Origin: Flavicella sp.
Lineage (GTDB): Bacteria; Bacteroidota; Bacteroidia; Flavobacteriales; Flavobacteriaceae
Length of the DNA stretch: 64,000 nucleotides
NCBI RefSeq assembly: GCF_029238425.1
Contig: NZ_JAQWGB010000073.1
Coordinates: 1 to 64,000, forward strand
Direction of reading: 5' to 3'
The translations under genes were made by a program, and so were the position numbers. This document shows positions 25,515 to 63,751 of the stretch, piece after piece. The notes beneath the pieces are model-generated. The model saw only the letters and a program-made list of their open reading frames with translations, was not told where the DNA came from and did no database searches. Within the stretch, counting starts at the first letter, position 1. The number at the start of each line of letters is the position of its first letter.

Positions 25515-25531
25515 TTGCTCAATAATACAAG

Positions 25532-45055: not shown

Positions 45056-48000
45056 TTAAAATTCAGTAGATTCCTCTGTTTCTTTTTTCTCTGGTACGAT
45101 GGTGTCAGTTGCTTTGTTCTTAAATTTTTCAGCAGTTCTTAGTTGTTCTAAAATACGACTTGCTTCAGCGGTTAGTTCTTCGAACTGTCCATAATTTTTA
45201 ACGATATTTTCTAAAATATAAGTCGCTTGAAAGGCATCGTTTAATCCAATATTATTTTCAGCCATCACAATCAAACCTTTAACTCCCCAATATTTGTGGT
45301 TTGCATATTTAGAGGCAAGGTCTTGAACTGTTTTGTTTGACTCTTTGTATTTACCTGCTCTGTTTTGAAAATACGCTTCATAATAAAGAGCTTCCGCTTT
45401 TAGAGCTCCTTTGGCATCTTTGGAAACCTCAGAATAAGCTTTTTCAGCTTTTTCTAAATCGTTAGTTTTGATCGCAGAACGTGCAATAAAAATAGTAGCA
45501 TCTGCCTTGATTTGAACATCTGCTTTTTTATGCTCTAAAACTTTTTCGGCATAGACGACAGCCTCTTTATATTTTTCTTGATCGTACATGGCTTTCATTA
45601 AATTACTTTGCGCGAACAAAACATTTTGAGGGAAGTTGGCTTCCAATTCAAGTCTTTCTAAATAAGGAATGGCATCAGGCCAAGAATTTTTCTCAAGATA
45701 AATTTGCACCAACCTAGCTAAAGCTTGTTCTGTGTATTCATTTGAGTTTTGTTCAACAACATGAACATATTTAGGAATTGCCTTTTCTGTATTTTCTAAA
45801 CTAAAATAGGCTTGCGCGCTGTAAAAATTTGCCTTCATGGCATGAATACCATTTGGGAAATTAATCAAGTATTTTTTAAAACTATGAGTGGCTGGAAGTA
45901 ATTCGTTGTTCACGTATTTTTTTTCTGCAGCTTCATACATCGCATTGTCCAAGTCTATATCAGAAAATTTAGTGTATTTGATTTCTCGAATCCAATCAGC
46001 ATATTCGTCAACTTTATCAATATCAATATATACTTGTCTGGCATTTTGAACAGCTTGTTGTGCCTCTTTCGCATTTGGGTATTCGGCTACAACATATTTG
46101 TACTTCTCAATAGATTTGTCTGTATTGTTATCGTTGAAATAAATCAATCCTTGTTTCAATAATGCCTTTGGGATGTATAAACTTGTTTTGTAGTTTTCTA
46201 TCAGTTTGTCGTAAGTGGCAATGGCTTTGTCATTTTCTTTGGCACTGATGTAGGCATTTCCTAATTCATATAAAGCATCGTCTTTGTAAGAAGATTTAGG
46301 GTGTTGATTGTCAAAATCTTTTAAAGTCTCAATTTTACTGTCATTTCTTCTAACAAATCCATAACTGATGGCTTTTTGGTACTGCGCATAATCATCATCA
46401 ATTCCTCTTTGTTCAATGACTTTATTATAAGCTTCCATAGCTTCCCAGTAACTTTTAGAGATAAAGTTACAGTCTCCCAATCGAATATAAGAATCGTTGC
46501 GTTTGACCTCATCGTCATTAGCGCTTTTTACATATGCCGTAAAACTTGATTTCGCCCTTCTGTAATCTTTGAGCTTGAAATAAGTGTATCCAATAGAATA
46601 ATTGATGTCTTTATATTCTGTTGTTTTTTTGGAAGCTGATAATCTCTGGAATCTTTTATAATCAGCAAGAGCTGTTTTAAAATCATTCAATCGGTAAGAA
46701 CATTCTGCTCTCCAGAATAATGATTTGGATTGTACCTCTCTTGATAAGGCTTGAGAACTTGAAGTTTTAAAATAAGTCAATGCCTCTTGGTATTTTGCAT
46801 ACTGGAATAATTGCATTCCTCTATGCATGGTAATTTCGTAGAAGGTTTTGTCTTTTGCCAATTCTCTTCTTTGATAATAGGTCAAAGCCCCTTCAAAATC
46901 TCTACTAGAGTTGTAGGTGTCAATAATCAGTTTGTTGATTTCTCTCGCATTTAAGGAGGTGGTATAGTTTTCTACATAATCCTGTAAAACTTCGGCACTA
47001 CTTTTATAAGGGTTTCCTATTTCATAACTAAGTTTTGCATAGTTATAAGCTGCATCTTCTTTGATATCTTCGTTAAAATCTAGTTCAGAACTGTTTTTAA
47101 AAGCATTTAATGCCTCACTTTTTTTATTTTGTTCAAGATAACAGGCCCCTAAATGATAGTAGGCATTTTGGGCTACTTCGTTTTTTCCTTTGGTAATACG
47201 GTTGAAACGCAAAATGGCATTTTCGTAATCCTTTACTTTGTAATAGGAATAGCCAAGAAAATAATGATCTTCATTTACCAATCTGTTTTTTCTACCTCGG
47301 TAATTTTTCAAATGCACAATTGCCTGATCATATTGTCCTAAATAAAAATAGCTTTCACCCACAACCTTAGAAATTTCTGAGACTTCTTTTTTAGGGACGA
47401 TTTTTAACAAATCGTTTCCGATAACCACGACTTCTTCAAATTTCTTGTTTTGAAATTTGATGTTCATCTTGTAATATAAAATCTCTTTGCGATACCTTTT
47501 ATTGCCCTCTAGTTTGTCAAAATATTTAAGAGCTGTGTTGTAATCTTCTTGTACGTAGGAGATATATCCGTAATAATAATTTGCTTCCGCTGTATAGTAT
47601 TTAGAATTGGTGAGAGGTAAAAAATATTGTTTCGCCTCTGTATACTTTTTATTAGAAAAATAGGCGTACCCCATTTTAAAATTATACGTATCCTCTTCTT
47701 TTGCTGTCAAGTATTTTGGAGAAACTTTTTGAAACCATTTTAAAGATTTTGCAGGTTTTCCATGATTGTAATAATAATTCCCAGCTTCTAAATAGGCTTT
47801 ATTTTTATGTCTGCTAGTTGGATATTTAGTCGTAAAGTCCAACAACATATTTTCACCCTCCTTTTTTTCTAATTTAACCGCGGTAATAGCTAAGTAATAA
47901 GCACAATCTTCGGTGGCAGAAGGATCATTTTTTAAATTTTCTGAAGCTCTAGAAAAAGCATTGAAAGCCGCTTCATAAATATCATTATTGTATAATTCTA

Positions 48001-48112
48001 GACCTTGTTCAAAGTCGTATAAGGGATGCGTAAATTTATCCGATTTTTGACTGTTGCTTAGCAAAGAGAAAAACAGCGCTAAAACAGTGATGAAAATTTT
48101 ATATGGGTGCAT
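45056..48112 (-). CDS. Large tetratricopeptide-repeat protein
   Basis: 1018 aa with signal peptide and many TPR motifs (YYYGYISYVQEDYNTALKYFDKLE, AYYHLGACYLEQNKKSEALNAFKNS). Confidence 0.9.
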   Translation of the reverse strand: MHPYKIFITVLALFFSLLSNSQKSDKFTHPLYDFEQGLELYNNDIYEAAFNAFSRASENLKNDPSATEDCAYYLAITAVKLEKKEGENMLLDFTTKYPTSRHKNKAYLEAGNYYYNHGKPAKSLKWFQKVSPKYLTAKEEDTYNFKMGYAYFSNKKYTEAKQYFLPLTNSKYYTAEANYYYGYISYVQEDYNTALKYFDKLEGNKRYRKEILYYKMNIKFQNKKFEEVVVIGNDLLKIVPKKEVSEISKVVGESYFYLGQYDQAIVHLKNYRGRKNRLVNEDHYFLGYSYYKVKDYENAILRFNRITKGKNEVAQNAYYHLGACYLEQNKKSEALNAFKNSSELDFNEDIKEDAAYNYAKLSYEIGNPYKSSAEVLQDYVENYTTSLNAREINKLIIDTYNSSRDFEGALTYYQRRELAKDKTFYEITMHRGMQLFQYAKYQEALTYFKTSSSQALSREVQSKSLFWRAECSYRLNDFKTALADYKRFQRLSASKKTTEYKDINYSIGYTYFKLKDYRRAKSSFTAYVKSANDDEVKRNDSYIRLGDCNFISKSYWEAMEAYNKVIEQRGIDDDYAQYQKAISYGFVRRNDSKIETLKDFDNQHPKSSYKDDALYELGNAYISAKENDKAIATYDKLIENYKTSLYIPKALLKQGLIYFNDNNTDKSIEKYKYVVAEYPNAKEAQQAVQNARQVYIDIDKVDEYADWIREIKYTKFSDIDLDNAMYEAAEKKYVNNELLPATHSFKKYLINFPNGIHAMKANFYSAQAYFSLENTEKAIPKYVHVVEQNSNEYTEQALARLVQIYLEKNSWPDAIPYLERLELEANFPQNVLFAQSNLMKAMYDQEKYKEAVVYAEKVLEHKKADVQIKADATIFIARSAIKTNDLEKAEKAYSEVSKDAKGALKAEALYYEAYFQNRAGKYKESNKTVQDLASKYANHKYWGVKGLIVMAENNIGLNDAFQATYILENIVKNYGQFEELTAEASRILEQLRTAEKFKNKATDTIVPEKKETEESTEF

Positions 48113-48270
48113 CTAGGCAAATTTTTAGTTGCTCAAAAATAAATAATATTCCTATATAACAACGCATCCAAGGATAGTTTTATTGGCTTAGGGTTCAAAC
48201 TTATACAAACAGTTATTTTTATTGGAAGTTCTTTTTGAATTCGATAAGTTTGTAACACTAAAATTCATAC

Positions 48271-48954
48271 ATGGGAAGCTCAATACTACACTTAGAAAAT
48301 GCTGCAATTTATCAAGATAAAAATTTGGTTTTATCTGATGTTAATTTGAATATTAAAAAGGGAGAATTTCTTTATTTGATAGGAAAAACAGGTTCTGGAA
48401 AAAGTAGTTTGATGAAAACCTTGTATGGAGATCTTCAATTAAAACAAGGGAAAGGTGAAATTGTAGGTTTTGATTTAGAAAAATTAAAAGACAGAGATAT
48501 TCCTTTTTTACGAAGAAAAATTGGAATAGTATTTCAAGATTTTAAATTGTTAAATGATAGAACGGTTTTTGAAAATCTTCGTTTTGTGTTGAAAGCCACA
48601 GGATGGAAAGACGCCAAATTGATTGCAGATAAAATTAGTGAAGTATTGGATAAGGTGGGTATGAAAACCAAAGATTATAAAATGCCTTTCCAGTTGTCTG
48701 GAGGTGAACAACAAAGAATTGCCATTGCAAGAGCCTTGTTAAACGACCCAGATTTAATTTTGGCAGATGAGCCTACTGGGAATTTAGACCCAAAAACCTC
48801 TATAGAAGTGATGGAGCTGATGAGTGAAATTCATAAAAGCGGAAAATCAATTTTAATGGCAACTCACGATTATGCCTTGATCTTAAAATTTCAGCAAAGA
48901 ACCATCAAATGTGAAGGGGGCGAGTTGTTTGAAGTGGTGCAGCAAGGGGCATAA
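48271..48954 (+). CDS. ftsE: FtsE-like cell-division ABC ATP-binding protein
   Basis: Walker A GKTGSGKSSLMKTLYG, signature LSGGEQQRIAIARALLNDPDLILADEPTGNLDP. Confidence 0.85.
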   Translation: MGSSILHLENAAIYQDKNLVLSDVNLNIKKGEFLYLIGKTGSGKSSLMKTLYGDLQLKQGKGEIVGFDLEKLKDRDIPFLRRKIGIVFQDFKLLNDRTVFENLRFVLKATGWKDAKLIADKISEVLDKVGMKTKDYKMPFQLSGGEQQRIAIARALLNDPDLILADEPTGNLDPKTSIEVMELMSEIHKSGKSILMATHDYALILKFQQRTIKCEGGELFEVVQQGA

Positions 48955-48956
48955 TA

Positions 48957-50264
48957 TTATTGAGCGAAAGCTACAAGCTCCGTATAAACACGTTTCCAGT
49001 TTTTCCATTCATTTTGTTCCGAAAGAGAGGAATTATGCCATAGGGAAATAAAAGTTCCTTCAACGGCTTTTACACTATGTATTATTTTTTTGCTTTTTGC
49101 GAGGGCTTCCTCTGGAGTCAATTGCATATAGCCATTTAAAGTTCCGTCCATTATTTGAAATGGATGCAACATTAAATTTGTTTGCTCATTTGTTTTGAGA
49201 TTAAAAAAGGGAAAGGGATTACAAATTCCAGCTCTAAAACCTATTTTAGAGGCATAACCCATTGTGTAGTCATGTTCAATGCCTTCATGGATTAAATTTT
49301 CATAAGTTTCTGGGAAATGAAGCTTTAAAAAATGCTGCCTACTTTTAATTATTTTTTCTCCCAAAATATGTTCTAACCTCTTTTTTTCAACACCAATCAG
49401 TTGTGGATTTTTATTAGATGCGTAGGAGGGATGTAAACCAATTTCATTTTCCTGATGTAATTCTTTAATTAAATTTTGAAATTCAGGAGATTTATGATGC
49501 AGGTTTTTATCAAACTTTCCGTAATTCCCTACTTGAATAAAAAATAGATTGGCGTTTTTATTTTTTTCATTGATGTTCTTGAAAACTGCATAGGTATCAT
49601 AAGGATCTTCTGTTTTTTTTGTAAAAAACGCAAGTTTGTTTTTTAATTCATCCGTATTCCCTTGAAGCAAGTTTTTGATGAAACTACTTGCTAATAAACC
49701 TTTTGATTTTCCTTTATAGGAATATGCTACATCAATATCAATGCTGTTGATGTATTGGTATTCTTTTTTAGGGAATCTATAATCTGGATATTTGGTTTCG
49801 ATCAAGGTTTGTAATTCTTTGATCCAAATATTGACGATTGGTTTTTCTAAAAGATTATTTTTAAAAGCCAGACTATTTTCTGCTCTGAACCTTCCATGGT
49901 TATCTAGGTTCGTTTTGAAATATTCTTCATATCTACTTACCATATAGAAAACACTGGCAAATAAATCATAGTTGATCGATTTATCTGAGGCGGTTTTGAA
50001 AATATATGCAATGTCTTTAAAATAAGATACTTCTGGACTATATTCTTGAAAGTCAGTTTCAGAGGTTATTTGATGCGGTGTAATTTGAATAGCATCCTCA
50101 AGAGATTCTTTGCTATAGTTGATTTTAACATCATTAGAGACTTTTAAAAACTCTTTTTTAGTCACTAAAATATAATCTACAAAAAGCACATGTTTGAAAA
50201 TAACATCCAAGGTGAAAGTCAGACGATTGCTTATAAAATCGCTGTAAATAATTATTGGTTTCAA
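48957..50264 (-). CDS. Polysaccharide deacetylase family protein
   Basis: YINSIDIDVAYSYKGK...NEIGLHPSYASNKNP...SRQHFLKLHFPETYENLIHEGIEHDYTMGYASKIGFRAGICNPFPFF. Confidence 0.8.
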   Translation of the reverse strand: MKPIIIYSDFISNRLTFTLDVIFKHVLFVDYILVTKKEFLKVSNDVKINYSKESLEDAIQITPHQITSETDFQEYSPEVSYFKDIAYIFKTASDKSINYDLFASVFYMVSRYEEYFKTNLDNHGRFRAENSLAFKNNLLEKPIVNIWIKELQTLIETKYPDYRFPKKEYQYINSIDIDVAYSYKGKSKGLLASSFIKNLLQGNTDELKNKLAFFTKKTEDPYDTYAVFKNINEKNKNANLFFIQVGNYGKFDKNLHHKSPEFQNLIKELHQENEIGLHPSYASNKNPQLIGVEKKRLEHILGEKIIKSRQHFLKLHFPETYENLIHEGIEHDYTMGYASKIGFRAGICNPFPFFNLKTNEQTNLMLHPFQIMDGTLNGYMQLTPEEALAKSKKIIHSVKAVEGTFISLWHNSSLSEQNEWKNWKRVYTELVAFAQ

Positions 50265-50326
50265 ATGGCTTTATTTATTATGAGATTAAAGACGATTGTT
50301 GTTAAAAGTAAAAAATAATGAGGACA

Positions 50327-51625
50327 TTATTCTGCTTTAGCTAAACCTATTTTATAGGTAGCTAGAGCACGTTCTCTTGCAAACTTGTGATCTACCATGG
50401 GTAATGGATATTCCAGACTATCAAATTCGGGGATCCATTTACGGATGTATTTCAATTCTTTGTCAAACTTTTTAATTTGTTCAGTAGGATTAAAAACTCT
50501 AAAGTAAGGAGCCGAGTCACAACCAGTTCCAGCCGACCATTGCCAGTTACCATTGTTGGATGATAATTCATAATCTAATAGTTTTTCGGCAAAATAAGCC
50601 TCACCCCAGCTCCAGTCAATTAATAAGTGTTTGGTAAGAAAACCTGCTACTATCATACGCACTCGATTGTGCATATAACCGGTTTGGTTAAGTTCTCTCA
50701 TTCCAGCATCAACAAAAGGATAACCAGTGGTTCCTGTTTTCCATTTTTCAAATTCCTCTTTGTTGTTTCTCCATTCAATGTGGTTGTATTTAGATTTGAA
50801 ATTCTGATCTACCACTTTTGGGAAATGATATAAAATTTGCATGAAAAACTCGCGCCAAATGAGCTCGTTTAGAAAAACTTCATTGTGTTTTAATTGTACT
50901 ACTAATTCACGAATACTTACGGTACCAAACCTTAGGTGTGGACTTAAGTAGCTTGTTTTATTTATATACGGAAGGTTTCTTTCTATTTCATAATCATGCA
51001 AATCATCAATAGCGTAGGGTAAAACTTCAATGGAAGATTTTTTGAATCCTAAACTTTCTAAACTAGGTAGGTCATAATGATTTTTGTGATAAGAATCCCA
51101 ATGATTTACGCTATAATTTTCTAAAGAAACTCCATGGAAAATATTTCGCCATTTGTTTTTGTAGGGAGTGTATACAGTATAAGGAAGTCCGTCATTCTTT
51201 ACAACTTCTGATTTTTCAAAAATCACTTGGTCTTTGAAAGAATGAAACTGTATTTTTTTTTCTTGTAGCAGTTGACAAATATTGATGTCTCTTTTTATGG
51301 CATAAGGTTCATAATCTTCATTGGTGTAAACAGCGTCCACTTCATAAGTTTCAATCAATTTTTTCCACACCTCTTTCGTTTTTCCTTTGATGCAAAGTAA
51401 ACTTGAATTATGTTCTACTAAGGTTTTTTGAATTTTTTCTAGAGATTCATAAATAAAACGAATACGTGCATCATTTTCAGGCAATTCGTTGATGATTTCT
51501 TCGTCAAAAATAAAAATGGGGATTACTGGAAGCCCTGTTTGTAGTGCTTTATGAAGGCCATGATTGTCATGGAGTCTTAGGTCTCTTCGAAACCAAAAAA
51601 ATGTTGTTTGCCTTTTTGATTGCAT
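50327..51625 (-). CDS. phr: Cryptochrome/deoxyribodipyrimidine photolyase
   Basis: FFWFRRDLRLHDNHGL...SPHLRFGTVSIREL...LIWREFFMQILYHFP...GYPFVDAGMRELNQTGYMHNRVRMIVAGFLTKHLLIDW. Confidence 0.96.
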   Translation of the reverse strand: MQSKRQTTFFWFRRDLRLHDNHGLHKALQTGLPVIPIFIFDEEIINELPENDARIRFIYESLEKIQKTLVEHNSSLLCIKGKTKEVWKKLIETYEVDAVYTNEDYEPYAIKRDINICQLLQEKKIQFHSFKDQVIFEKSEVVKNDGLPYTVYTPYKNKWRNIFHGVSLENYSVNHWDSYHKNHYDLPSLESLGFKKSSIEVLPYAIDDLHDYEIERNLPYINKTSYLSPHLRFGTVSIRELVVQLKHNEVFLNELIWREFFMQILYHFPKVVDQNFKSKYNHIEWRNNKEEFEKWKTGTTGYPFVDAGMRELNQTGYMHNRVRMIVAGFLTKHLLIDWSWGEAYFAEKLLDYELSSNNGNWQWSAGTGCDSAPYFRVFNPTEQIKKFDKELKYIRKWIPEFDSLEYPLPMVDHKFARERALATYKIGLAKAE

Positions 51626-51635
51626 TTTAGGATTT

Positions 51636-52538
51636 CTATCGATTGATTTTTTTGTTGAGTAGTCCTAGTTTATAAAAATTAAGCACTGATATATGAAAAT
51701 AGTATCCTTTTATTAGCATTAGTTTCAAAAGAGGAGCACTAATATAAGTCAAAACCTTTAATAGCCACAGCAGATTTCTGTTTTTTATGATATTAAATAT
51801 TGTTAGGATTTTTATATTTTGGATAAGTTGGTTTTGATCTTGGTATGATTTTAATATATAAATCAGATTATCGATACTATACTCAACTTTTTTTAAATAA
51901 TCACTGTTCAATTCATAATCAGCATTTAAAATAGGATTGTCAATATGTGTTAACTCAATGTTTTGATGCTGTAATGAAAAACCAAATAGTGTATCTTCAT
52001 GACCATATTTTTGTATACTCTCATCAAATTTAATTTTTTTTAAAATAGACTTTTTAATAACAAAATTATTAGTCATAAAAGAATTGTATGGTTTGGCTTT
52101 CCTTTTATTTAAAGACATTGTCTCTTTTTTTAAACCATATTCCCAATTTAAAAGAAATTTTCTAGAAGGCTTTAAGTTTGGATACATTCTTCCTCCACAA
52201 ACCACAGAACTTTGTGTTTCTCTTTTGAAGATATCAAGGTAAGACGAAATAAAAAAAGGACTTATTACACGTCCATCACAATCCAAAAAAAGGAGATATT
52301 CATATTTTGCATATTGAACAAATAAATTTCTGATTTTGGCCCTTCCAATATTTTGGTTTAATTGTATATAATTAGTGATTTTATTTAGGTTTTCATTTTT
52401 TGCTCGGTAATCATTATTAGAGGCATCGTCAATCAAAATTATTTCTGTGGAACTAGAGAATTGACTCGTTTCTAGCAACAATTCGTTTACAAAGGGGACA
52501 ACATTTACATTATATATAGGGATGCAAATAGATAACAT
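51636..52538 (-). CDS. Glycosyltransferase family 2
   Basis: LSICIPIYNVNV...EIILIDDASNNDY...YLLFLDCDGRVIS. Confidence 0.9.
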   Translation of the reverse strand: MLSICIPIYNVNVVPFVNELLLETSQFSSSTEIILIDDASNNDYRAKNENLNKITNYIQLNQNIGRAKIRNLFVQYAKYEYLLFLDCDGRVISPFFISSYLDIFKRETQSSVVCGGRMYPNLKPSRKFLLNWEYGLKKETMSLNKRKAKPYNSFMTNNFVIKKSILKKIKFDESIQKYGHEDTLFGFSLQHQNIELTHIDNPILNADYELNSDYLKKVEYSIDNLIYILKSYQDQNQLIQNIKILTIFNIIKNRNLLWLLKVLTYISAPLLKLMLIKGYYFHISVLNFYKLGLLNKKINR

Positions 52539-52604
52539 GAGAAAAAAGAAAAACTTGAGTTAAGGATAAACGCTAAGGTAATTATATTTTTAGCAATAGA
52601 TGCT

Positions 52605-53717
52605 TTAAATAATCCCTTTATAGAAACTCAGTAAAGTTTTTTCTTGCTCTTCCCAACTATATTTATCAGAAATAGATTGTAAGTTTTTTTGCCAAATATT
52701 GTATTGAGCTTCGTTATTCAACGCTTCTTGTACAAGGCTTGCCATTTTTTTTGGATTATGTGAATCAGAGACCAATCCAATGTTGTGTTTTTTTACTAAT
52801 TCTCCGACAATTTTTCTATTTGAAACTAATAATGGTGTTTCCGCTTGAATATAGTCAAAGATCTTATTAGGCAGGCTATATTCATAATTAAGGTTTGTGT
52901 TTTTATCTAAAGATAATCCAAGATCGGAAATCTTAGTATATTCCATTAAAGAAGCGTAATCTATTCTACCTAATATTTGCACTTTATACTGGAGTTTATA
53001 CTTGCTAACTATCTTTTTTAACTTAGGAATAGCATGTCCGCTACCAATTATAAATAATTTCATGTTTTCCAAGTATTGCATCATTTCAACAGCTTCTTCC
53101 GCACCACGATCTATATTAATTCCAGCACCCTGCAGAATTAACATTTTATGATTTCCTTTTACCTCTCTACTAAGTTCAATGTTTTTGTTTTTGTTTTTTA
53201 ACATTGGCGCAATGTTTCTTATGACAATAACATGGACGTTATATTTTTTCTCATAGATTTCAGCAATAACTTTATTTACAGTTATTACGTTTTTTAGTTT
53301 GGGAAAAATGAACTTTTCAATGGCAAGCCATATTGATTGCACTCTAGGTCTATTTATTAATTCTGGAACTTCTGTGTATAGTTCGTGACTATCGTACACT
53401 AACTTTTTCTTCATTAATTTTGAAATAATGAAATTAGGTAAAAGGGTATCCAAATCATTGGCTAGTAGAATGTCTTTCTTAAGGAAGAAAATTTTGAAAA
53501 ATACACGAAGATTGAATTCTGCGAAGAATAAAAATCCTTTGCTAAAAAACAAACGCATTCTTTTGGTTTCATATTCTCTATTTAGCGGAGAAGATTTGTG
53601 CAATGTATATCCAATGACAGTTATTTTATAACCTGCTTTAGAAAGTGTAGTACAAACTTTGTGAACTCGTTGATCCGTTTCTAGATCGTTTAAGACAGAG
53701 ACAATTATACGTTTCAA
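52605..53717 (-). CDS. Glycosyltransferase family 4
   Basis: LVYDSHELYTEVPEL...ILQGAGINIDRGAEEAVEMMQYL...YSLPNKIFDYIQAETPLLVSN. Confidence 0.9.
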   Translation of the reverse strand: MKRIIVSVLNDLETDQRVHKVCTTLSKAGYKITVIGYTLHKSSPLNREYETKRMRLFFSKGFLFFAEFNLRVFFKIFFLKKDILLANDLDTLLPNFIISKLMKKKLVYDSHELYTEVPELINRPRVQSIWLAIEKFIFPKLKNVITVNKVIAEIYEKKYNVHVIVIRNIAPMLKNKNKNIELSREVKGNHKMLILQGAGINIDRGAEEAVEMMQYLENMKLFIIGSGHAIPKLKKIVSKYKLQYKVQILGRIDYASLMEYTKISDLGLSLDKNTNLNYEYSLPNKIFDYIQAETPLLVSNRKIVGELVKKHNIGLVSDSHNPKKMASLVQEALNNEAQYNIWQKNLQSISDKYSWEEQEKTLLSFYKGII

Positions 53718-53826
53718 ATTGAATAAAATATTGAGTTTTTATGAAGCTCGAAAATACTCAATAAATTTCATATTCGTCTTAGGAATAAAAAAATATAAAT
53801 TCGTAGATGTAAAATATCTAAAAGGA

Positions 53827-53970
53827 CTAAGGCTTTTTACCGAATAAAGTTTGAAAGCGGGTTTTCGTAAGTTTTTTGATTCTCGATATATGTGCAAATG
53901 AATTGATCTCGTTTTTAAATACAATCGTCCGTAGGTTTCTGAATTTATTTTCAGAATCTATTCAAGGAGT
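53827..53970 (-). pseudogene. Degenerate copy of the tmRNA 5' half plus upstream region (pseudo-ssrA)
   Basis: Minus strand TTGAATAGATTCTGAAAATAAATTCAGAAACCTACGGACGATTGTATTTAAAAACGAGATCAATTCATTTGCACATATATCGAGAATCAAAAAACTTACGAAAACCCGCTTTCAAACTTTATTCGGTAAAAAGCC aligns with tmRNA TTGAATAGTTTCTGAAACATATTTAGAAACATGGGGACGACTGGTTTTGACAGCGAGATCAATCAATATGTAAGCATGTCGAGAAAGGAAACAACTCTCGTAAAACTCGGTTTCAACATTTTATACGGTGAAGAATC. Confidence 0.82.
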
Positions 53971-54065
53971 ACCCTGATACCAGTGTGATTCCCAATAAAT
54001 AATATCTTGTTGTTCCTCTGATTTTTGGAGTCTCTTCTCCTTAAAATGGAGTGAATAGTTTGTGT

Positions 54066-55499
54066 TTACCTTTCAACTAGTAAGTATTCTAAATATCTTA
54101 TAGCTGATGCTATTACGTTTTTTCTTTTCTGTGCTTTTCCATCAAAAGCATCTAAAGTTTCTCTGTCGAGCATTCTACCTTTTACAAAAACAAAAGTCGG
54201 ATTCTTCAAAGAGGACAGAGTTTCAAGTGGATTTTCATCTACTAAAATAAAGTTTGCAATTTTTCCCTTTTCAATTGTCCCAAGTTGATTCATAATTGCA
54301 TGTGTTTGAGAGGCGTTAACAGTTGCCGTTTTCAAAACTTCAAAATTTGAGAGACCTGCTTCTTTATAAAATGCCAATTCTTTATGAATTGAAAATCCTG
54401 GAGTGGTCACACCGATTCCCGAGTCAGTCCCACAAATGAGAGTCACATGTGCATCATGAAGTTTTTTAACAATCATCAAATGAAATTCATGCTGTTTTTT
54501 AATCCTATCAACAGATGCGAGGTCTTCTTTCTTAGTGTTGGACCAACGTTCAAACTGTTTTTTACTATCTGTTTTTTTTATGAGTGGATTCATATATGAT
54601 GCCAATTCTGAGTCTAAAATGGAAGCATCTAACATCATTTGGTAGATGTTGTTGAATACAGTAATAGTCGGACAATAATTGGTGTGTTTGGATTGTGCAA
54701 TGGCATCAACTATGGGTTGTAATTTCAAAGAGTCTAAATCAAATTGCAATGGTTGTTGTACAATTTCTTCAGCATGTTCTATAGATTTAATCTGGGTGTT
54801 TAAATGATATGTAAAGGGCACTTTTTGTGATGGATGTGCTACAATATCGATTTCCGAAGTTTTGCATTGTTCCAGAACAGCATCAAAAATTTCCTTATCC
54901 AAACCATAATAAGTTTTGATAAAATCATAGCCTCTGTTTTTGTAAGAAATTACTTTTTCTTTTGCATCCACAATATTGCTTAAATTTATATTATCGTCCC
55001 CAATAAATTCGTGTCCGGTTAATTTGGGACCTGTTGTGAAAAATATTGGAGCTATTATTTTATCATTTGCAATATCATTCTTAATTCTTAAATGAGCAGG
55101 CATACCCCATAAATTTCTTATTGTGGTAACGCCGTTTGATAAATACAAACCAAGTTCATATCTGTCCCAAACATGTACATGCATATCTATAAGCCCAGGA
55201 ACTAAATATTTGTTTTTACCGTCAATAACTTCTAAGTCATTTGCAATGATGTTGTCAGAAATCTGTTCTATAATTCCCTTTTTTACAAGGAGCATTTTAT
55301 TTATTAAAACAGTGTCTTGATCCATAGGAATTATATTGACATTGGTCAAAAGAAAAGTAGTGCTGGAACCTAATTCATTCTTGTCAATTTTTAAATAATT
55401 AGTTCCTTGATAATCTAGATAAAGACTAATCATAATAGTAATTAGAATCGCTCCAAAGAGTACTCCAATAATTTTTAAAAGTCCTTTAAGTATTTTCAT
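54066..55499 (-). CDS. Membrane-anchored amidohydrolase family protein
   Basis: N-terminal TM; YLVPGLIDMHVHVWDRYELGLYLSNGVTTIRNLWG...LICGTDSGIGVTTPGFSIHKELAFYKEAGLSNFEVLKTATVN...GTIEKGKIANFILVDENPLE. Confidence 0.92.
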   Translation of the reverse strand: MKILKGLLKIIGVLFGAILITIMISLYLDYQGTNYLKIDKNELGSSTTFLLTNVNIIPMDQDTVLINKMLLVKKGIIEQISDNIIANDLEVIDGKNKYLVPGLIDMHVHVWDRYELGLYLSNGVTTIRNLWGMPAHLRIKNDIANDKIIAPIFFTTGPKLTGHEFIGDDNINLSNIVDAKEKVISYKNRGYDFIKTYYGLDKEIFDAVLEQCKTSEIDIVAHPSQKVPFTYHLNTQIKSIEHAEEIVQQPLQFDLDSLKLQPIVDAIAQSKHTNYCPTITVFNNIYQMMLDASILDSELASYMNPLIKKTDSKKQFERWSNTKKEDLASVDRIKKQHEFHLMIVKKLHDAHVTLICGTDSGIGVTTPGFSIHKELAFYKEAGLSNFEVLKTATVNASQTHAIMNQLGTIEKGKIANFILVDENPLETLSSLKNPTFVFVKGRMLDRETLDAFDGKAQKRKNVIASAIRYLEYLLVER

Positions 55500-55637
55500 A
55501 AAACTATTTATGGTTGATTTAATAAGTATTTCCTAGATACTTCTGATTAGATAATCTTTCAAACCTAAAAGTAGGCAAATAAGTGATGCATAGCATGTCG
55601 ATCAAAAAATTTTAAAAAAGGATATTTGCCAAAACCC

Positions 55638-55665
55638 AAAAAGCTCCCTTATAAGGAGCTTTTTT
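55638..55665 (-). terminator. Rho-independent terminator-like hairpin
   Basis: AAAAAGCTCCCTTATAAGGAGCTTTTTT; T/A tracts on both sides, orientation uncertain. Confidence 0.7.
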
Positions 55666-55682
55666 AATGAGATCATAGGTGG

Positions 55683-56105
55683 TTAATTTTGACTAAGAAT
55701 CATGGATTCTAAACTATCAATAATTACATGGTAGAAACCTTCAAATAATTCGATCATTGCTGCTTTTGTTTCTTCATTTGTTTCGAATTGAGAACCCCAA
55801 GTAACTTTAGAACCTGAGTTTTCTAGAGCTTCAACTTTTACATTACTCACATATCCAGTTATAGGAAAAGGTCCTTCCGTTATTTTGTACTGCATTTCCA
55901 TGGAGTTGTTGTTTACTTTTTCCAAAACTTCATGAATCATTGCTCCATCTGGCATGTAGCATGTTCTTTTGGCACCGGCACCTTCACCTACAGTTTCCGA
56001 CCTTTCGATGGGTGAAATGGCTTCAATGTTTCTAAATGAGGATAATGTTGACCATACTTTGTTCGCTGGTACTTGAATTCTTTTGCTTACTACTACTTCT
56101 GTCAT
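55683..56105 (-). CDS. SRPBCC family (polyketide cyclase/START-like) protein
   Basis: VVVSKRIQVPANKVWSTLSSFRNIEAISPIERSETVGEGAGAKRTCYMPDGAMIHEVLEK. Confidence 0.85.
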   Translation of the reverse strand: MTEVVVSKRIQVPANKVWSTLSSFRNIEAISPIERSETVGEGAGAKRTCYMPDGAMIHEVLEKVNNNSMEMQYKITEGPFPITGYVSNVKVEALENSGSKVTWGSQFETNEETKAAMIELFEGFYHVIIDSLESMILSQN

Positions 56106-56185
56106 AATAATTAGATTTAATGGTTAATACAACAAAAATAAGGTTGCTTGTTCCATCATAAAAAAACAGCGTTCAGTTAAAAGAA

Positions 56186-56761
56186 TTAGCGAATAAAATT
56201 CAGTTGTTCATCTATATAAGCTTGCAATTCATCCTTTGGTTTTATTTTGTACAAAATACTAAGACTGAAAATAATTCCAAGTAAAAACTCGGCATAAGTA
56301 TCTATGCTGTTTTCATTTTTAATTTGCCCTAAATTATAGGCTTTTCTTAGTACTACTTTGTAGCTGTCTGTGAGGATCTGGAAATATTGTTCATACTTAT
56401 TGATAATATCTCTATTCTCGTTACGCATTTCAACAATCGTATTGACCATCAAACAACTTTTTGGAAAGGTTTTATCAAGTAAAGCTTCGATAATTGAATA
56501 AAAAAAATCTTTTAAAGAGTCTAGGCCTTCTGTCGTTTCTCTTAATTGCTGAAGAAAGGGATCAGAGTAATTAGAAGTATAGTATTTTAAGGAGTCAATG
56601 AAAAGCATTTCTTTTGGGTACTTATTGTAAATAGTGGAGGTACTAACACCGACATGTTCTGCCAATTCTTTAGCGCTAATTCCTTTAAATCCATGAAGCC
56701 AAAAAATTTCTTGAGCTTTCTCTACGAGTTCATTGTACGAATGTGATAATTCTCTAGCCAT
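56186..56761 (-). CDS. TetR/AcrR-family transcriptional regulator
   Basis: KAQEIFWLHGFKGISAKELAEHVGVSTSTIYNKYPKEMLFIDSL. Confidence 0.93.
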   Translation of the reverse strand: MARELSHSYNELVEKAQEIFWLHGFKGISAKELAEHVGVSTSTIYNKYPKEMLFIDSLKYYTSNYSDPFLQQLRETTEGLDSLKDFFYSIIEALLDKTFPKSCLMVNTIVEMRNENRDIINKYEQYFQILTDSYKVVLRKAYNLGQIKNENSIDTYAEFLLGIIFSLSILYKIKPKDELQAYIDEQLNFIR

Positions 56762-57317
56762 GTTTTTTTAAAATTACGTTAATACCAGTTTCTATATGTT
56801 TTTCACGTTGATCTTTTGAGTGGATGAGGCAAAAACTTGTTGCGGTACAATACAAACCAAGAAAATGACGTGCAAGCAAATTAGAGTTATCAGATGAAAC
56901 ACCTTTTCGTTGAAGCAGCATATTGAGTTTATTTTCGATATCCGATAGATAGTCATCAACCAAGACCTTAATTTTTTTGTCTTTGTCCGCTAGTTCCGTT
57001 GCGATATGAATAAAATAACATCCCGGTATTGCATTGCTTTCATCAATAAAGCTTAAAAAGAAGTTTTTTAAAATTTCAGGTAATTCTCCTTCAGCCTTTA
57101 ACAGATCAAGTTTTTCTTGACAATACCTTTTTTTGTATAAATGAAGTGAAGCATACAGGATCCCTTCCTTGTTTTCAAACTCATGGTATAAAGAAAAGCG
57201 GTTCACCCCAGTTGTTTGAACAATTTCATTGATGGAGCACCCCCTAAAACCATTCTCCCAGAATAATTTAATTGACTTTTCTAGTACATTATTGGTATTG
57301 TATTCTTTGTATCGCAT
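56754..57317 (-). CDS. TetR/AcrR-family transcriptional regulator
   Basis: KSIKLFWENGFRGCSINEIVQTTGVNRFSLYHEFENKEGILYASL. Confidence 0.93.
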   Translation of the reverse strand: MRYKEYNTNNVLEKSIKLFWENGFRGCSINEIVQTTGVNRFSLYHEFENKEGILYASLHLYKKRYCQEKLDLLKAEGELPEILKNFFLSFIDESNAIPGCYFIHIATELADKDKKIKVLVDDYLSDIENKLNMLLQRKGVSSDNSNLLARHFLGLYCTATSFCLIHSKDQREKHIETGINVILKKHG

Positions 57318-57411
57318 AATCTATTTCAAATGTAGTCAATTCAAATTTTTAGAAAAAAAATGGCGTTCAGATATGAGTTTTAGTTTGTCATGTACTTAAT
57401 TCTTGATAGTA

Positions 57412-58130
57412 TTAGTTTATTTCATTTGGAAATAATTCTCCTTCAAATACGGTTCCCCACACCTTTATATCCTTTAAAGCATCAGGGGCAACTTTATACG
57501 GGTTTTTATCGATGATAGTAAAATTGGCTATTTTATCCTTTTTGATACTACCAATACTATCTTCCATTCTCCATGAATAAGCCGCTTCTATTGTAATACC
57601 TCTCATGGCACCATGGATGGATAGGGCTAGGTCCGGGCGATGCACATTGCCATGCAATGATTTCTAGTGACAGCACACCAAGCAAGATACAAGGGATCAG
57701 AAGGTCCAATAGGGAGATCAGAGTGAAGGGAATAAGGGATATTGTATTTTTCAACTGTTCCAGATCTAACCATTGCTGAGGCTCTTTCAGGCCCTAAACC
57801 AATTTTTGAGTAATTATCACTAAAGGCAGTTACGTAGTATGGGTTTGCACTTATTATACAACCAAGCTCAGAAAGTTTTTTTACTTGTTTGTCAGTAGAG
57901 TTTGCAAAATGAACGATGGTTGTTCGGTGGTCCTCTCTAGGAAATTCCTTCATTTTTCTTTCGATAACTTTTAACAATTCATTCATGCCTTTGTCACCTT
58001 TTACATGAATATGTATCTGGTATTCTAAAGGCCAAAAAATATCAAAAAGTTCTGAAATTGTTTCAGGGTTTTGAATCCATTCTCCTTCATGACCATCTAG
58101 ATAACCGTCTTCCATCATCATTAATTTCAA
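57412..58130 (-). pseudogene. YtcJ-like amidohydrolase remnant: N-terminus missing, frameshifted near 57650
   Basis: Fragment KLMMMEDGYLDGHEGEWIQNPETIS...HIHVKGDKGMNELLKVIE...LHSDLPIGPSDPLYLAWCAVTRN, then another frame LHGNVHRPDLALSIHGAMRGITIEAAYSWRMEDSIGSIKKDKIANFTIIDKNPYKV. Neither ORF is complete. Confidence 0.87.
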
Positions 58131-58491
58131 TCCAATATCCATCCGGATCTTGAATGTAAACCTGTTTGATTCCATCTTGTCGAATATAATCTTTACTAGG
58201 TGTATCCTTCCAATCCGTATAGGGGATCTTTAATTTATTTAAAAATAAAATAAAAGAAGCAATATCAGCTGTTGATAAAGCAAAATGAACAGCCTTGTTT
58301 GTTTTTATTTCTGCCTGTGGTCGGGGGATAAGGTGCAGTTGTTTACCATCACCAATGGACAACCATCTCGTTTTTGAATTAGAAGCTGTGTTTTTAATTT
58401 CTTGGAACTGAAATACTTTGTTGTAGAACTCAAAGGAAAGATCCACTTGTTTTACAGAAATGGCAATATGGTTTATTTTAAAAGGAAGCAT
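58087..58491 (-). CDS. VOC/glyoxalase family protein with 3' end running into the amidohydrolase remnant
   Basis: INHIAISVKQVDLSFEFYNKVFQFQEI...KQVYIQDPDGYWIEIN followed by DDGRRLSRWS, out-of-frame amidohydrolase DNA. Confidence 0.85.
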   Translation of the reverse strand: MLPFKINHIAISVKQVDLSFEFYNKVFQFQEIKNTASNSKTRWLSIGDGKQLHLIPRPQAEIKTNKAVHFALSTADIASFILFLNKLKIPYTDWKDTPSKDYIRQDGIKQVYIQDPDGYWIEINDDGRRLSRWS

Positions 58492-58518
58492 TTGTGTAAA
58501 ATATTAATATAGAAATAT

Positions 58519-59229
58519 TTACTTATTTGGAAATTTGTGAACTCTTTTAAATTGTCTTGTAACAAGAGAATCAGAATTCAAAAGTTTTAGTGTTATTAGA
58601 TTTTCTGCGAATTCAATACGCCAAAAATCTCTTTTGAGTGGGGTGCTATAAGGAATTAGTTCTAGCTCAGGTTTGTGGCCATGAACATTGTAAACACCAT
58701 GAACTTTTCCTTTTTTGGTTCCAATAACAAAGCGCTTATCCCATCTGATAAAAAGATATTCATTATTTTCATTTGTGTCGGATTCCATAAAATAAGGACC
58801 ATTACCAGTGGCTTTTTCTAATAGCCATAAACCAAGTATTTTATCAGCATAGGTTTCAGGTAATTGAGTAGAACGTTCTAGATGTACTTTAATATGCTGT
58901 CCTTCTTCGATTCTTTCCCAAATCATTTCATTTGCGCCCAACGTCATCATAAAAGGAGGGTTTGAGTCTTCAAGTCCGTTTGTGTTTATAATAAATAGCT
59001 CGTTTTTGTTTTGATTCAGCTCCCATAATCCATAGGAATGTTGGAATCTTCCGTTCCCTGATTCTTGTGTTTGATCCGCATGAAAACGGGTCCATCTCGC
59101 ATTGGGTGTCATTTTTTTCTCACCAACCATTACAGATTTTACAACCCATAGCCCTTCAATTGTTGAAGGTTGATCGCAGCTAGTAAAAGATAGAACGACA
59201 GTTAAGAATACTATACCGCTTAATTTCAT
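58519..59229 (-). CDS. Hypothetical lipoprotein
   Basis: Lipobox-like VLSFTSCDQPSTIEGLWVVKSVMVG. Confidence 0.7.
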   Translation of the reverse strand: MKLSGIVFLTVVLSFTSCDQPSTIEGLWVVKSVMVGEKKMTPNARWTRFHADQTQESGNGRFQHSYGLWELNQNKNELFIINTNGLEDSNPPFMMTLGANEMIWERIEEGQHIKVHLERSTQLPETYADKILGLWLLEKATGNGPYFMESDTNENNEYLFIRWDKRFVIGTKKGKVHGVYNVHGHKPELELIPYSTPLKRDFWRIEFAENLITLKLLNSDSLVTRQFKRVHKFPNK

Positions 59230-59329
59230 TTCTTTTTGTTAGATTTCTAAAGTTGGATACCTTATTTATTTGAGCTTTTCTAAAAAAAACACGATTTACA
59301 GATAACCAAGGCATGATAAACATTCTAAT

Positions 59330-59770
59330 TTAGCTCCTATCTTCATATATATCAAATTCAGCATTTATGGAAGCCATTAATTCTGCATCTTCAAAATCAG
59401 CATCCGCCATTTGAGCTAATTTTTCTAGGTAAAGATCAAATTGCCCATTTTTAAAAATACTTAGCATTTTGCCTCCTTCTGTACATCTTGCGGCATGCCA
59501 AACATTTGGTGGAACTGTTATAGTATCTCCTTTTGTAGCGATAATTGTTTCATCATCAAATATCAATTCTACAGTACCTTCTAGTATATAAAATACCTCC
59601 GTCATAATTTTATGATGGTGTCTGCCTAAATAAAAACCAGGCTTAAGAGTATCTTCAACAAAACTTAATTCGCCGTTGGTATGATGCGATGAAAGTTTCA
59701 CAAAACAATGATCTTGAGAATAGTTATAGTTTTTTCCTTCTCCGTTTTTAATGATTTCTTTTTCTTTCAT
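59330..59770 (-). CDS. Cupin domain protein
   Basis: GFYLGRHHHKIMTEVFYILEGTVELIFDDETIIATKGDTITVPPNVWHAARCTEGG. Confidence 0.9.
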   Translation of the reverse strand: MKEKEIIKNGEGKNYNYSQDHCFVKLSSHHTNGELSFVEDTLKPGFYLGRHHHKIMTEVFYILEGTVELIFDDETIIATKGDTITVPPNVWHAARCTEGGKMLSIFKNGQFDLYLEKLAQMADADFEDAELMASINAEFDIYEDRS

Positions 59771-59964
59771 TTCTTTATTTTTAATTGATTCAATTCTTCT
59801 TCTAATAATGTGGCCTCGTTTTGAAACTTTGTCATCGCTTTTTTGAGTTTAATTACTTTTTTTAAGAGTTCAACCTTGTCAACGACCTTAAAGCAATTTT
59901 CTCCATTAGTTTCTATAATTTTTGATTTTCCGCCACAAGTTGGACAGTCTATTGTGTTGCTCAT
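59767..59964 (-). CDS. Small CPxCG-containing coiled-coil protein
   Basis: MSNTIDCPTCGGKSKIIE...LKKVIKLKKAMTKFQNEATLLEEELNQLKIKK; overlaps cupin start by 4 nt and lies in an apparent operon. Confidence 0.65.
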   Translation of the reverse strand: MSNTIDCPTCGGKSKIIETNGENCFKVVDKVELLKKVIKLKKAMTKFQNEATLLEEELNQLKIKK

Positions 59965-59965
59965 G

Positions 59966-60589
59966 TCAATTTACGGTTATTATGGCTACTTTGCCATTAA
60001 ATTTTGATTGAATTTTATAGGTATCGGTAGCTATAGAAGATAAAAACTTCTGACTGTCAGTCATATTTGCGTTATCGACATAAATATGTGTATTTGAATA
60101 AAAGTTAGGTTCTAACAATTTAAAGAGGGGCAAGTACAAGTCCATCCAACCATCTAAAACTAATAAATCTATACTATTGCTGTAGTTTTTTAAGGTAACC
60201 AATGCATCACCAACTTTTATGTCAATTAGGCTTTCTACTCCTGCTTTTTTAAAATTATTTATTGCCTTTTTGGCTTTTGATTCTAATAATTCGGTAGTGG
60301 TAATATATCCACCAAATTTTGCAACCCCTTGAGCCAAATACAATGTTGAAATCCCAAATGAAGTTCCGAATTCGACTATGTTTTTCAGCTTTTTATCTTG
60401 AATCAAATGCACCAACGCCTCACCTTGATCTTTGGATATAGCTAAATAAGCATCTTCAAAATTTTCTGGTTTAAACGATCTGAATAAACTTTTTGCCGCT
60501 CCTTTGAGCATTTTTAACTTGTCGTATTTTGCATCCTGATATAGGGCGTTGATAACAGCAGCAAGTGTATGTTCCTCTGTTTGTGTCAT
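59966..60589 (-). CDS. Class I SAM-dependent methyltransferase (O-methyltransferase-like)
   Basis: KNIVEFGTSFGISTLYLAQGVAKFGGYITTTELLESKAKKAINNFKKAG...DLLVLDGWMDLYLPLFKLLEP. Confidence 0.87.
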   Translation of the reverse strand: MTQTEEHTLAAVINALYQDAKYDKLKMLKGAAKSLFRSFKPENFEDAYLAISKDQGEALVHLIQDKKLKNIVEFGTSFGISTLYLAQGVAKFGGYITTTELLESKAKKAINNFKKAGVESLIDIKVGDALVTLKNYSNSIDLLVLDGWMDLYLPLFKLLEPNFYSNTHIYVDNANMTDSQKFLSSIATDTYKIQSKFNGKVAIITVN

Positions 60590-60857
60590 TTTATAGTGTT
60601 TTTAATTACAGTATAAAATTACTCTAAGTAAATACTTAATAGCTGATACAAATGAGGCTAATAATGGTGAAAGTAGGAAGTATTGGTTTTTCGTGAAATA
60701 TTCGAATAATTAATATATAGCTTATATGTTGAAATTATACTTTTTAAGTTTTTGATTTTTAAAACAGTTTGTATTTTAGTAAAATAAATAAATATTGATT
60801 GATACTAGATTGTTTTCTATTCTGAATGGTTACAACTAGTAGGTATGAATCACATAA

Positions 60858-61931
60858 ATGTATTTTAATATGTATAAACTATTTACTACTTTTTTTTTAT
60901 TAGCAATTACTCATTTTTATAGTTTCGCCCAAAATGATTCTTTAGTTCTTGTTAATGGTAATATCATCGATGGTGACTTGAAAAGTATGGACAAAGGTGT
61001 ACTTACAATTGAGCCTACGTATTCCGATTCTGACTTTAAAATAAAATGGGAAGATATAAAAGAAATGAAAACCTTTCAACGGTATTTAATTACACTTTCT
61101 GATGGAAGGAGAATCAATGGGACTTTTAGGAGTTCTGGTGATGGAATGGTTTTTATTGCTAATGAAAATGGTGCTGATATTACCATTAGGCAATCTGAAA
61201 TTGTTACTGTAAATAGTGTCGATAGTAGTTTTTTAAGTCGTATTTCTGCGAATATTGATTTTGGGTTATCACTTACTAAAGCGAATAACCAACGTCAATT
61301 GAATGGAAATCTTAGGATTGGGTATATTGCAGATACTTGGTCTACAGAATTGTATTATAATACCTTATTAACAGCTCAGGACGATGTGGAAGACATACAA
61401 AGAAATGATGCCGGGCTTGGTGCTCGTTATTTTCTACCATCTGATTGGAACCTATCTGCAGATATAGATTTACTTTCCAATACAGAACAGTCCTTAGATT
61501 TGCGTACCACAGCCATGCTAGGTGTTGGTAATTATATTATTCATACGAATGCATCCTATTGGAATTTATCTACAGGAATGGCTTACAATAATGAGTCATT
61601 TTCAGCGATTATTGCAGATGATGGTTTTATTACGCCAGAATCTACAAGGAATTCTGTTGAAGGATTTATTGGAACAGAATTAAATTTATATGATGTAAGT
61701 GATTTAAATCTATTTACTAATATCATCGCGTACCCAACGATTGTCGCAGATGAAAATGTAGAAGCGGGTCGTTTTCGTACCAATTTTAGATTTGATGCAA
61801 AATATGATGATTTTATATTAAAAGATTTCTACGTAAGAGCAGGATATACACTCAATTATGATAATAGACCAGTTGAAGAGGGTAAAGAAATAGATTATGT
61901 GTTTACCACAGGTTTTGGTTGGGAATGGTAA
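60858..61931 (+). CDS. DUF481 (YdiY-like) outer membrane protein
   Basis: Signal peptide; LVNGNIIDGDLKSMDKGVLTIEPTYSDSDFKIKWEDIKEM; C-terminal barrel ending FTTGFGWEW. Confidence 0.87.
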   Translation: MYFNMYKLFTTFFLLAITHFYSFAQNDSLVLVNGNIIDGDLKSMDKGVLTIEPTYSDSDFKIKWEDIKEMKTFQRYLITLSDGRRINGTFRSSGDGMVFIANENGADITIRQSEIVTVNSVDSSFLSRISANIDFGLSLTKANNQRQLNGNLRIGYIADTWSTELYYNTLLTAQDDVEDIQRNDAGLGARYFLPSDWNLSADIDLLSNTEQSLDLRTTAMLGVGNYIIHTNASYWNLSTGMAYNNESFSAIIADDGFITPESTRNSVEGFIGTELNLYDVSDLNLFTNIIAYPTIVADENVEAGRFRTNFRFDAKYDDFILKDFYVRAGYTLNYDNRPVEEGKEIDYVFTTGFGWEW

Positions 61932-61951
61932 TCATGATTTCTTATTTAAAT

Positions 61952-61998
61952 AAAAAACCTCAACAATACTGTCAGTCAGTTTGTTGAGGTTTTGTTTT
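61952..61998. terminator. Bidirectional terminator between the DUF481 gene and convergent tmRNA
   Basis: AAAAAACCTCAACAA...TTGTTGAGGTTTTGTTTT. Confidence 0.85.
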
Positions 61999-61999
61999 G

Positions 62000-62389
62000 T
62001 GGAGACGCCGGGAATCGAACCCGGGTCCAAACAAGCAACCGCAAGGCTTTCTACATGCTTAGTTTCTAATTAATTTTCGATCCAATGCCGCTTAAAAACA
62101 AGCTACAAGAGACTTATCTTCTTTAATTTCGAAAAAATATCGAAGCCTATTTTTTCTATGTATACTTTTACGACACCTCAAAATGGAACGCCGCATACCA
62201 AGGCTTTCCGGAGATGCATAGCCTGCTCACCTTGTGAGCCGAGGCCCATCCTACTATAATTCAGATTAGGCAGCCATGGCGAAAGATTCTTCACCGTATA
62301 AAATGTTGAAACCGAGTTTTACGAGAGTTGTTTCCTTTCTCGACATGCTTACATATTGATTGATCTCGCTGTCAAAACCAGTCGTCCCC
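62000..62389 (-). ncRNA. ssrA: Transfer-messenger RNA; tag GEESFAMAA*
   Basis: Minus strand 5' GGGGACGACTGGTTTTGACAGCG...; tag GGT GAA GAA TCT TTC GCC ATG GCT GCC TAA at 62295-62266; 3' GGACCCGGGTTCGATTCCCGGCGTCTCCA; acceptor stem GGGGACG/CGTCTCC pairs with one G-U. Confidence 0.97.
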
Positions 62390-62522
62390 ATGTTTCTAAA
62401 TATGTTTCAGAAACTATTCAATGAGCTGGCTGCAAAATTAGACAAAATAATAAGATATTCAGCGATTGTTTTGTGAGAAATTTGAAAAGAAATAATATTT
62501 TTGATGTTGTTAAAAATCAAGA

Positions 62523-62750
62523 ATGCAAGAGCAACAAGAGTATTTAAAAAAATTAGCACATACAAGAATGCCCTTTGGGAAGTTTAAGGGAACGTATCTT
62601 ATTGACTTGCCCGAGCATTATATCGTTTGGTATCATAACAAAGGTTTTCCAAAAGGACAAACAGGGGATATGTTACGTTTGGTATATGAATTAAAATTAA
62701 ATGGATTGGAACATCTGATCCATAAAATTAGAAAAGACTCAAGTCGTTAA
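62523..62750 (+). CDS. DUF3820 family protein
   Basis: RMPFGKFKGTYLIDLPEHYIVWYHNKGFPKGQTGDML. Confidence 0.88.
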   Translation: MQEQQEYLKKLAHTRMPFGKFKGTYLIDLPEHYIVWYHNKGFPKGQTGDMLRLVYELKLNGLEHLIHKIRKDSSR

Positions 62751-63751
62751 TCAATTCTGAACTGGAGTATCATTTCAGTCTCCAATAAAACATTTAAAGT
62801 AGTATTCTTTTTGCCTGCAACAGGTATTTTTAAAATAGCTTTACTCCCTTCAAATTCAGGTATGATAGAGGTTAGATAATAATCGTTTTCAAACGCAAAA
62901 CCCATTTCCGATGCAGGAGGTAGATTGTCTATTTCTATAAGAATAAATGCTTTGTTTTTCGGATGAATAATTCCCGATATTGGGGCTAATAATTTTAGAT
63001 TATTGTCAAAAAACAAAGAAGAATATATAGGCTGACTTGTGAATTCTTTTTCATTTAATGAAGGCTGAGTCAATTGCCATTTTTTTTCTTCTGGGTAGTG
63101 TGTTGTGAGTAAGTCTTTCGGAGCGGTAAAAAAATAATGTGCATCAAAATCTTTAACCCAGTGTTCAGAGTCTCTGCTGTATCCTGCACCCCAAGTAGTG
63201 TCAATCAGTTTCCATTGATTGTTAATATACACAGCATTCCATGCATGTTTTCCGCTTAAAGGTAATTTGCCAATTTGAGAAAATGGACTTCGACTGTATC
63301 CACTGATAATTTCACATCTGATGTTTAGTATATCACAGACCTCCTTGAAAACCATAGAATAGCCTTCACAAATGGCTCTTTTTTCTTGCATTGTTTTGGA
63401 TATGATTTCTAAATCTCGCGCTCTGATTTTCTGTTCTAGTTCCTCCTTAGAACTATACCGGAAACTATAGTTGGTAGCCCCATAATTCAATTCATTTATA
63501 TTGTAATCTATATGATGGGTTAGCCAAATAAATAATGCACGTACTTGATCGCTTTGATCTTTGAAGTCATCAGAAATATGTGTAGCCAAAACCTTGGCAT
63601 CAGAGATACCACTGCTGTAACTTAAAGCAATCTCATCTATTTTTTCAAACTTTTGCGCGTAGGAGTGAAGCACTACAAAGAGAGCTGTAAATAGAAAAGA
63701 CTGTTTTACATTTCTGAAAAACAGTCTTTGTATTTTGTTAAGAACAAACAT
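62747..63751 (-). CDS. Transglutaminase-like domain protein
   Basis: Signal peptide; RAICEGYSMVFKEVCDILNIRCEIISGYS...KHAWNAVYINNQWKLIDTTWGAG (Cys-His-Asp triad context). Confidence 0.9.
   Translation of the reverse strand: MFVLNKIQRLFFRNVKQSFLFTALFVVLHSYAQKFEKIDEIALSYSSGISDAKVLATHISDDFKDQSDQVRALFIWLTHHIDYNINELNYGATNYSFRYSSKEELEQKIRARDLEIISKTMQEKRAICEGYSMVFKEVCDILNIRCEIISGYSRSPFSQIGKLPLSGKHAWNAVYINNQWKLIDTTWGAGYSRDSEHWVKDFDAHYFFTAPKDLLTTHYPEEKKWQLTQPSLNEKEFTSQPIYSSLFFDNNLKLLAPISGIIHPKNKAFILIEIDNLPPASEMGFAFENDYYLTSIIPEFEGSKAILKIPVAGKKNTTLNVLLETEMILQFRID

Follow-up and report, generated by a model that had tools for sequence, protein, structure and literature searches.

The window analysed here, 64,000 nucleotides of a Flavicella sp. 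contig, raises the question of how the beginning of a tmRNA gene, together with the leader in front of it, could come to lie ~8 kb downstream of an intact ssrA. The intact gene (61997–62389, minus strand, tag GEESFAMAA*) scores 135.7 bits with Rfam model RF00023, and is not detected by ARAGORN. The second sequence (53829–53969, minus strand) was recovered by Smith–Waterman alignment, by profile match and as a direct repeat; it is a decayed copy of ~36 nt of the ssrA leader and of tmRNA positions 1–107. A sequence-only reading had aligned this block by eye, on the minus strand, with the upstream and 5′ region of ssrA, and had left two explanations standing: the scar of a duplication or integration event, or a tmRNA-derived small RNA that kept its upstream region.

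The homology is confirmed, at essentially the coordinates first given. The copy aligns with 62283–62425 (minus strand), a partner that begins ~36 nt before the 5′ end of the mature tmRNA and ends with position 107 at the start of the tag, with matches at 105 of 140 aligned positions and four one-base gaps. The alignment score is 120, against 33.7 ± 5.2 for dinucleotide shuffles (maximum 59); not one of 1000 shuffles reaches 120, in a comparison on which the sequence-only reading had staked its case, and the best score among 692 other blocks of the window is 51. An independent repeat search returns the same pair as the longest direct repeat in 48000–64000 (71 nt ungapped, 72%), both members lying in the same orientation, and a profile of 21 Flavobacteriaceae tmRNA 5′ halves, with the copy left out, detects it in the window at E = 2.3e-5 (E = 1.2e-3 on a per-genome scale). 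The short motifs picked out by eye are present, including GGT AAA AAG CCT TAG at the tag position; the 5′ acceptor strand reads GGGG in ssrA and ACGG in the copy.

The ssrA 3′ half (pseudoknots, T arm and acceptor 3′ strand) has no significant match on either side of it, as had been supposed from inspection. Homology reaching beyond the copy was considered and dropped, because no match in the flanks is significant against shuffles (an upstream stretch resembling a 3′ scar, CTCCA...CAACAA, p = 0.38; an upstream AT match, p = 0.08; downstream matches, p ≥ 0.08). Searches by blastn with the copy as query were uninformative: in its own genome even ssrA is not found, and 100 relatives return only short AT-rich matches, of which several fall on a dispersed palindrome, GATTCTGAAATAAATTCAGAATGAC.

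The copy shares with the leader of its own ssrA a palindrome that lies just 5′ of the mature tmRNA (GTTTCTGAA-ACATA-TTTAGAAAC, 62392–62414, minus strand, fold z = -4.5), with its counterpart at 53937–53956 (minus strand), where TTCTGAA-AATAAA-TTCAGAA can be read from the sequence. The palindrome sequence of the intact gene is absent from congeners. In a congener, G001, another palindrome occupies the corresponding position just 5′ of the mature tmRNA end (L099:242-275), and none was seen in the other congeners; the palindromes of the window and of G001 are possibly processing or regulatory hairpins. Farther upstream, TAATTTTG (62433–62440, minus strand) fits TAnnTTTG, the Bacteroidetes -7 element, and belongs to the ssrA promoter.

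Comparison with relatives indicates where the copy came from. Its tmRNA body scores 81 against its own ssrA and 58 against that of the next-best genome, and its leader scores 43 against its own ssrA and, for the best body matches listed, no more than 20. The copy is thus far closer to the ssrA of its own genome than to those of relatives, and would therefore be a paralogue made in this lineage, most likely by a duplication after the split from the other congeners compared. No counterpart was found in congeners, either by a Smith–Waterman scan of the ssrA neighbourhood or by a whole-genome profile search of G001–G003.

Mismatches between the copy and its own ssrA fall on 15 of 42 invariant columns (those at least 95% identical across 41 tmRNA sequences) and on 10 of 37 variable columns (p = 0.47, from a small sample of 141 nt). 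Invariant columns are therefore hit as often as variable ones, the pattern of neutral decay, and the base changes are AT-directed, with GC-to-AT changes at 16 of 51 bases and AT-to-GC changes at 10 of 89. RF00023, whose use had been suggested alongside the alignment, gives no match in 53600–54150 at E ≤ 10. Having neither the 3′ acceptor strand nor the T arm, the copy cannot form a tRNA-like domain and therefore does not act as a tmRNA. Homology beyond chance and loss of functional constraint, the latter judged over only 141 nt, together indicate a pseudogene, apparently a genetic fossil with no sign of use.

The position of the copy can be understood from the surrounding gene order, for which a check of synteny had also been proposed. 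In several Flavobacteriaceae loci recovered via a group-1 glycosyltransferase (52605–53717, minus strand, Pfam), ssrA lies directly upstream of that gene and on the same strand, across gaps of 268 nt (L121), 446 nt (L191), 568 nt (L158) and 699 nt (L169), and of up to ~8 kb at other loci; in the window the gap is ~8.3 kb. Congener G001 has the order ssrA, 2 kb, glycosyltransferase, second glycosyltransferase, photolyase and so on, and the window is alike save for an additional 8-kb block. The adjacency of ssrA and glycosyltransferase is therefore taken as ancestral and the interval between them as a hotspot, which in the window is an insertion relative to several relatives. The inserted accessory block (53970–61996) was annotated with Pfam and PHROGs and carries genes for a DUF481 protein, an O-methyltransferase, a cupin, a glyoxalase, a disrupted amidohydrolase, two TetR regulators, an SRPBCC protein and an amidohydrolase, with the copy at its glycosyltransferase end. 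These genes are not beside ssrA in congeners; two that were compared have matches of only 30–39% identity elsewhere in congener genomes. Among the interval proteins scanned, Pfam and PHROGs recognised no integrase, phage structural gene or other mobility gene.

Two genes of the block merit a separate remark. An amidohydrolase (Amidohydro_3, 57412–58175, minus strand) is split between overlapping fragments that lie in different frames (57412–57657 and 57627–58175), the second of which overlaps the glyoxalase reading frame; the damage is consistent with decay within the inserted block. The O-methyltransferase-like protein (59966–60589, minus strand) partially matches the PADLOC model mad2 (E = 9e-10, residues 3–162), probably through nothing more than a shared methyltransferase fold.

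Relatives preserve other traces of traffic at this site. In G001 a decayed ssrA 3′ end with its terminator stands immediately before the glycosyltransferase (score 56 against 19.0 ± 3.1, reached by 0 of 2000 shuffles), and in Polaribacter aquimarinus (L176) an exact 16-nt ssrA 3′ end plus terminator lies ~400 nt before it; both are what integration at the 3′ end of ssrA typically leaves behind. As a separate observation, the 62-nt hairpin-terminator that follows ssrA in another congener (G002, L101; CTTCGCTCGCCGAAGCATCGAACACC...) recurs exactly ~1.5–2 kb downstream of ssrA and gives rise to several high-scoring blocks.

The closest parallel is found in another genus of the family. In genome G169 an intact ssrA (727247–727642) is followed by a tyrosine integrase with Phage_integrase, SAM-like and arm-binding domains and by 45 kb of inserted DNA, after which comes a second ssrA of full length but in decay, on the same strand as the first; the Rfam scores of the two genes are 128.2 and 49.3 bits. 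Homology of the second ssrA begins ~30 nt upstream of the gene, in the leader as in the window. The likeness thus extends to an intact ssrA, inserted DNA and a directly oriented second ssrA in decay, and the difference is that G169 has kept a full-length second gene and its integrase, whereas the window has neither; G169 presents the end arrangement of the window in a younger state. The second ssrA of G169 (C1:772761-773172, equivalent to L240:17762-18173) is itself a mosaic that shares ~97% identity with the intact gene at positions 96–175 and ~70–93% elsewhere, which suggests gene conversion or an uneven history.

Across 400 Flavobacteriaceae genomes, a profile search at E ≤ 1e-4 finds a second strong tmRNA 5′ half in just two of them, G169 and G322 (6% contaminated), at a threshold that would miss copies as decayed as that of the window (E = 1.2e-3 per genome). 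The weaker second matches of G029, G202 and G006 (E 1e-3 to 7e-3) are close to what chance would give in 250 genomes. Well-preserved second copies thus appear to be rare in the family, and strongly decayed ones would escape such a search. On the same result we set aside the idea that isolated tmRNA 5′ halves form a conserved family.

We consider it likely that the block is a pseudogene representing the remaining 5′ part of a second, once longer and probably full-length ssrA at the glycosyltransferase-side end of inserted DNA. Synteny places ssrA at first directly upstream of the glycosyltransferase, and DNA would then have been inserted recurrently just downstream of ssrA, with the ssrA 3′ end serving as attachment site in some relatives, as their scars suggest. 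An insertion in this lineage would have left a second ssrA, in direct orientation, at the far end. The simplest route would be an element whose attachment region carried an ssrA of its own from the same lineage, so that crossover at the 3′ end put the host ssrA at the near end and the element-borne ssrA at the far end, the same ends as in G169 beside its tyrosine integrase; a homologous single crossover could also have supplied the second gene. The redundant copy would subsequently have shed its 3′ part by deletion, the integrase would have been lost, and what remained underwent the neutral decay described above. Several observations weigh against this history: no mobility gene is left in the 8-kb block, no 3′-end scar is detectable next to the copy, the flanks of the copy have no significant match, and a 5′ fragment lies downstream of the target. 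Since neither an integrase nor a 3′ scar beside the copy survives, a role for an integrase at this locus is proposed by analogy only.

Of the two earlier explanations, then, the scar of a duplication or integration is the one that fits the neutral decay, the lineage-specific origin and the place of the copy at the distal end of an insertion. A duplication need not have involved an integrase: ssrA, with or without its neighbours, might have been duplicated in tandem, or a circle bearing ssrA might have entered by homologous single crossover, foreign genes then gathering between the copies while the distal one decayed. Direct orientation, inclusion of the leader and absence of an integrase would all be accounted for. 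We nevertheless regard this as unlikely, though deserving of some weight, given that 48000–64000 holds no other long direct repeat hinting at a larger duplicated block, that the site is independently an integration hotspot with 3′-end scars in relatives, and that G169 has the same end arrangement beside an integrase.

The geometry of the locus bears on a further idea, that the copy is simply the displaced fragment (attR) that a single site-specific integration into ssrA ordinarily leaves. It is true that ssrA is a preferred integration target (PMC4383910) and that relatives bear such scars at this very site. Integration at the 3′ end, however, leaves a 3′ fragment downstream, whereas here a 5′ fragment with its leader lies downstream of the intact gene, with no ssrA 3′ end beside it; the copy therefore cannot be a simple displaced fragment unless the element itself carried ssrA 5′ sequence, and we hold this explanation to be very improbable. 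The odd geometry would be resolved if a complete second ssrA had stood at the distal end and been truncated later.

A functional tmRNA-derived small RNA, for instance a decoy or regulator still equipped with the leader of ssrA, draws on the somewhat lower mismatch count in the leader than in the body (6/36 vs 29/104) and on the palindrome of the copy, whose pairing is still perfect over 7 bp. A functional RNA of tmRNA type would nevertheless spare the tmRNA-invariant sites, which are unconstrained here. A pattern scan upstream of the copy finds no TAnnTTTG, its predicted fold is no better than shuffles (z = -0.1), and no terminator-like site was found for it. With no Rfam match and no counterpart in the congeners tested, this half of the sequence-only reading has no support, and we think it hardly credible.

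We give equally little credence to the notion that the copy derives from RNA, as a reverse-transcribed 5′ fragment of precursor tmRNA, or is still used as an expressed tmRNA fragment competing with tmRNA. The upstream edge of the homology (~62425) falls near the expected ssrA transcription start, given the position of the -7-like motif, and would suit either form of the proposal; the homology start in G169 is compatible with both as well.

Some phages carry permuted tmRNAs, which consist of two pieces; that the copy is the coding piece of one can be discounted almost entirely. Permuted tmRNAs start with the same 5′ motif, and four viral contigs with that motif match the permuted-tmRNA model RF04321, but neither RF04321 nor RF00023 matches 53600–54150 at E ≤ 10, and the copy has its match, leader included, in the standard ssrA of the genome in which it lies. 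A phage origin was rejected as well. The viral contigs in question (L242, L246, L247 and L248), which came up with the 5′ motif of Flavobacteriaceae tmRNA, have tmRNA genes of the permuted type, and a further contig (L244) has the motif in another tmRNA-like context that gives no Rfam tmRNA match.

Pseudogenes of tmRNA and fragments made by islands are already documented, and what is unusual here is which part survives. The window resembles a documented case of a second, non-functional ssrA-derived sequence that is missing one gene end in a genome with an intact ssrA, and differs from it in that what has been kept here is the 5′ end along with the leader, at a site downstream of the intact gene, and in that the integrase is gone. 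It likewise resembles the Islander-type islands in tmRNA genes (an intact gene, accessory DNA and a same-strand fragment at the far end; PMC4383910), sharing the common orientation of gene and fragment and an interval that is an insertion relative to relatives. The Islander definition, however, needs an integrase and a standard configuration, a 3′ fragment downstream or a 5′ fragment upstream, and rejects a 5′ fragment downstream (PMC4383910); the window locus has neither. In Dehalococcoides, ssrA-bounded genomic islands also place accessory genes just downstream of ssrA between ssrA-derived direct repeats, but there each repeat comprises 20 bp from the 3′ end of ssrA (PMC3146451), as against ~141 nt of 5′ end and leader in the window.

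Turnover at the 3′ flank of ssrA in Flavobacteriaceae has left a clear fossil in the copy, which beyond that reflects ordinary genome decay. G169 points to elements that bring with them, or generate, an entire second ssrA and not only a short 3′ fragment, and such cases would escape island finders that assume the standard configuration. Elsewhere in the window, a Bacteroid-trp leader (RF01692, 59.6 bits) lies at 25512–25635 on the plus strand, before a gene starting at 25741.
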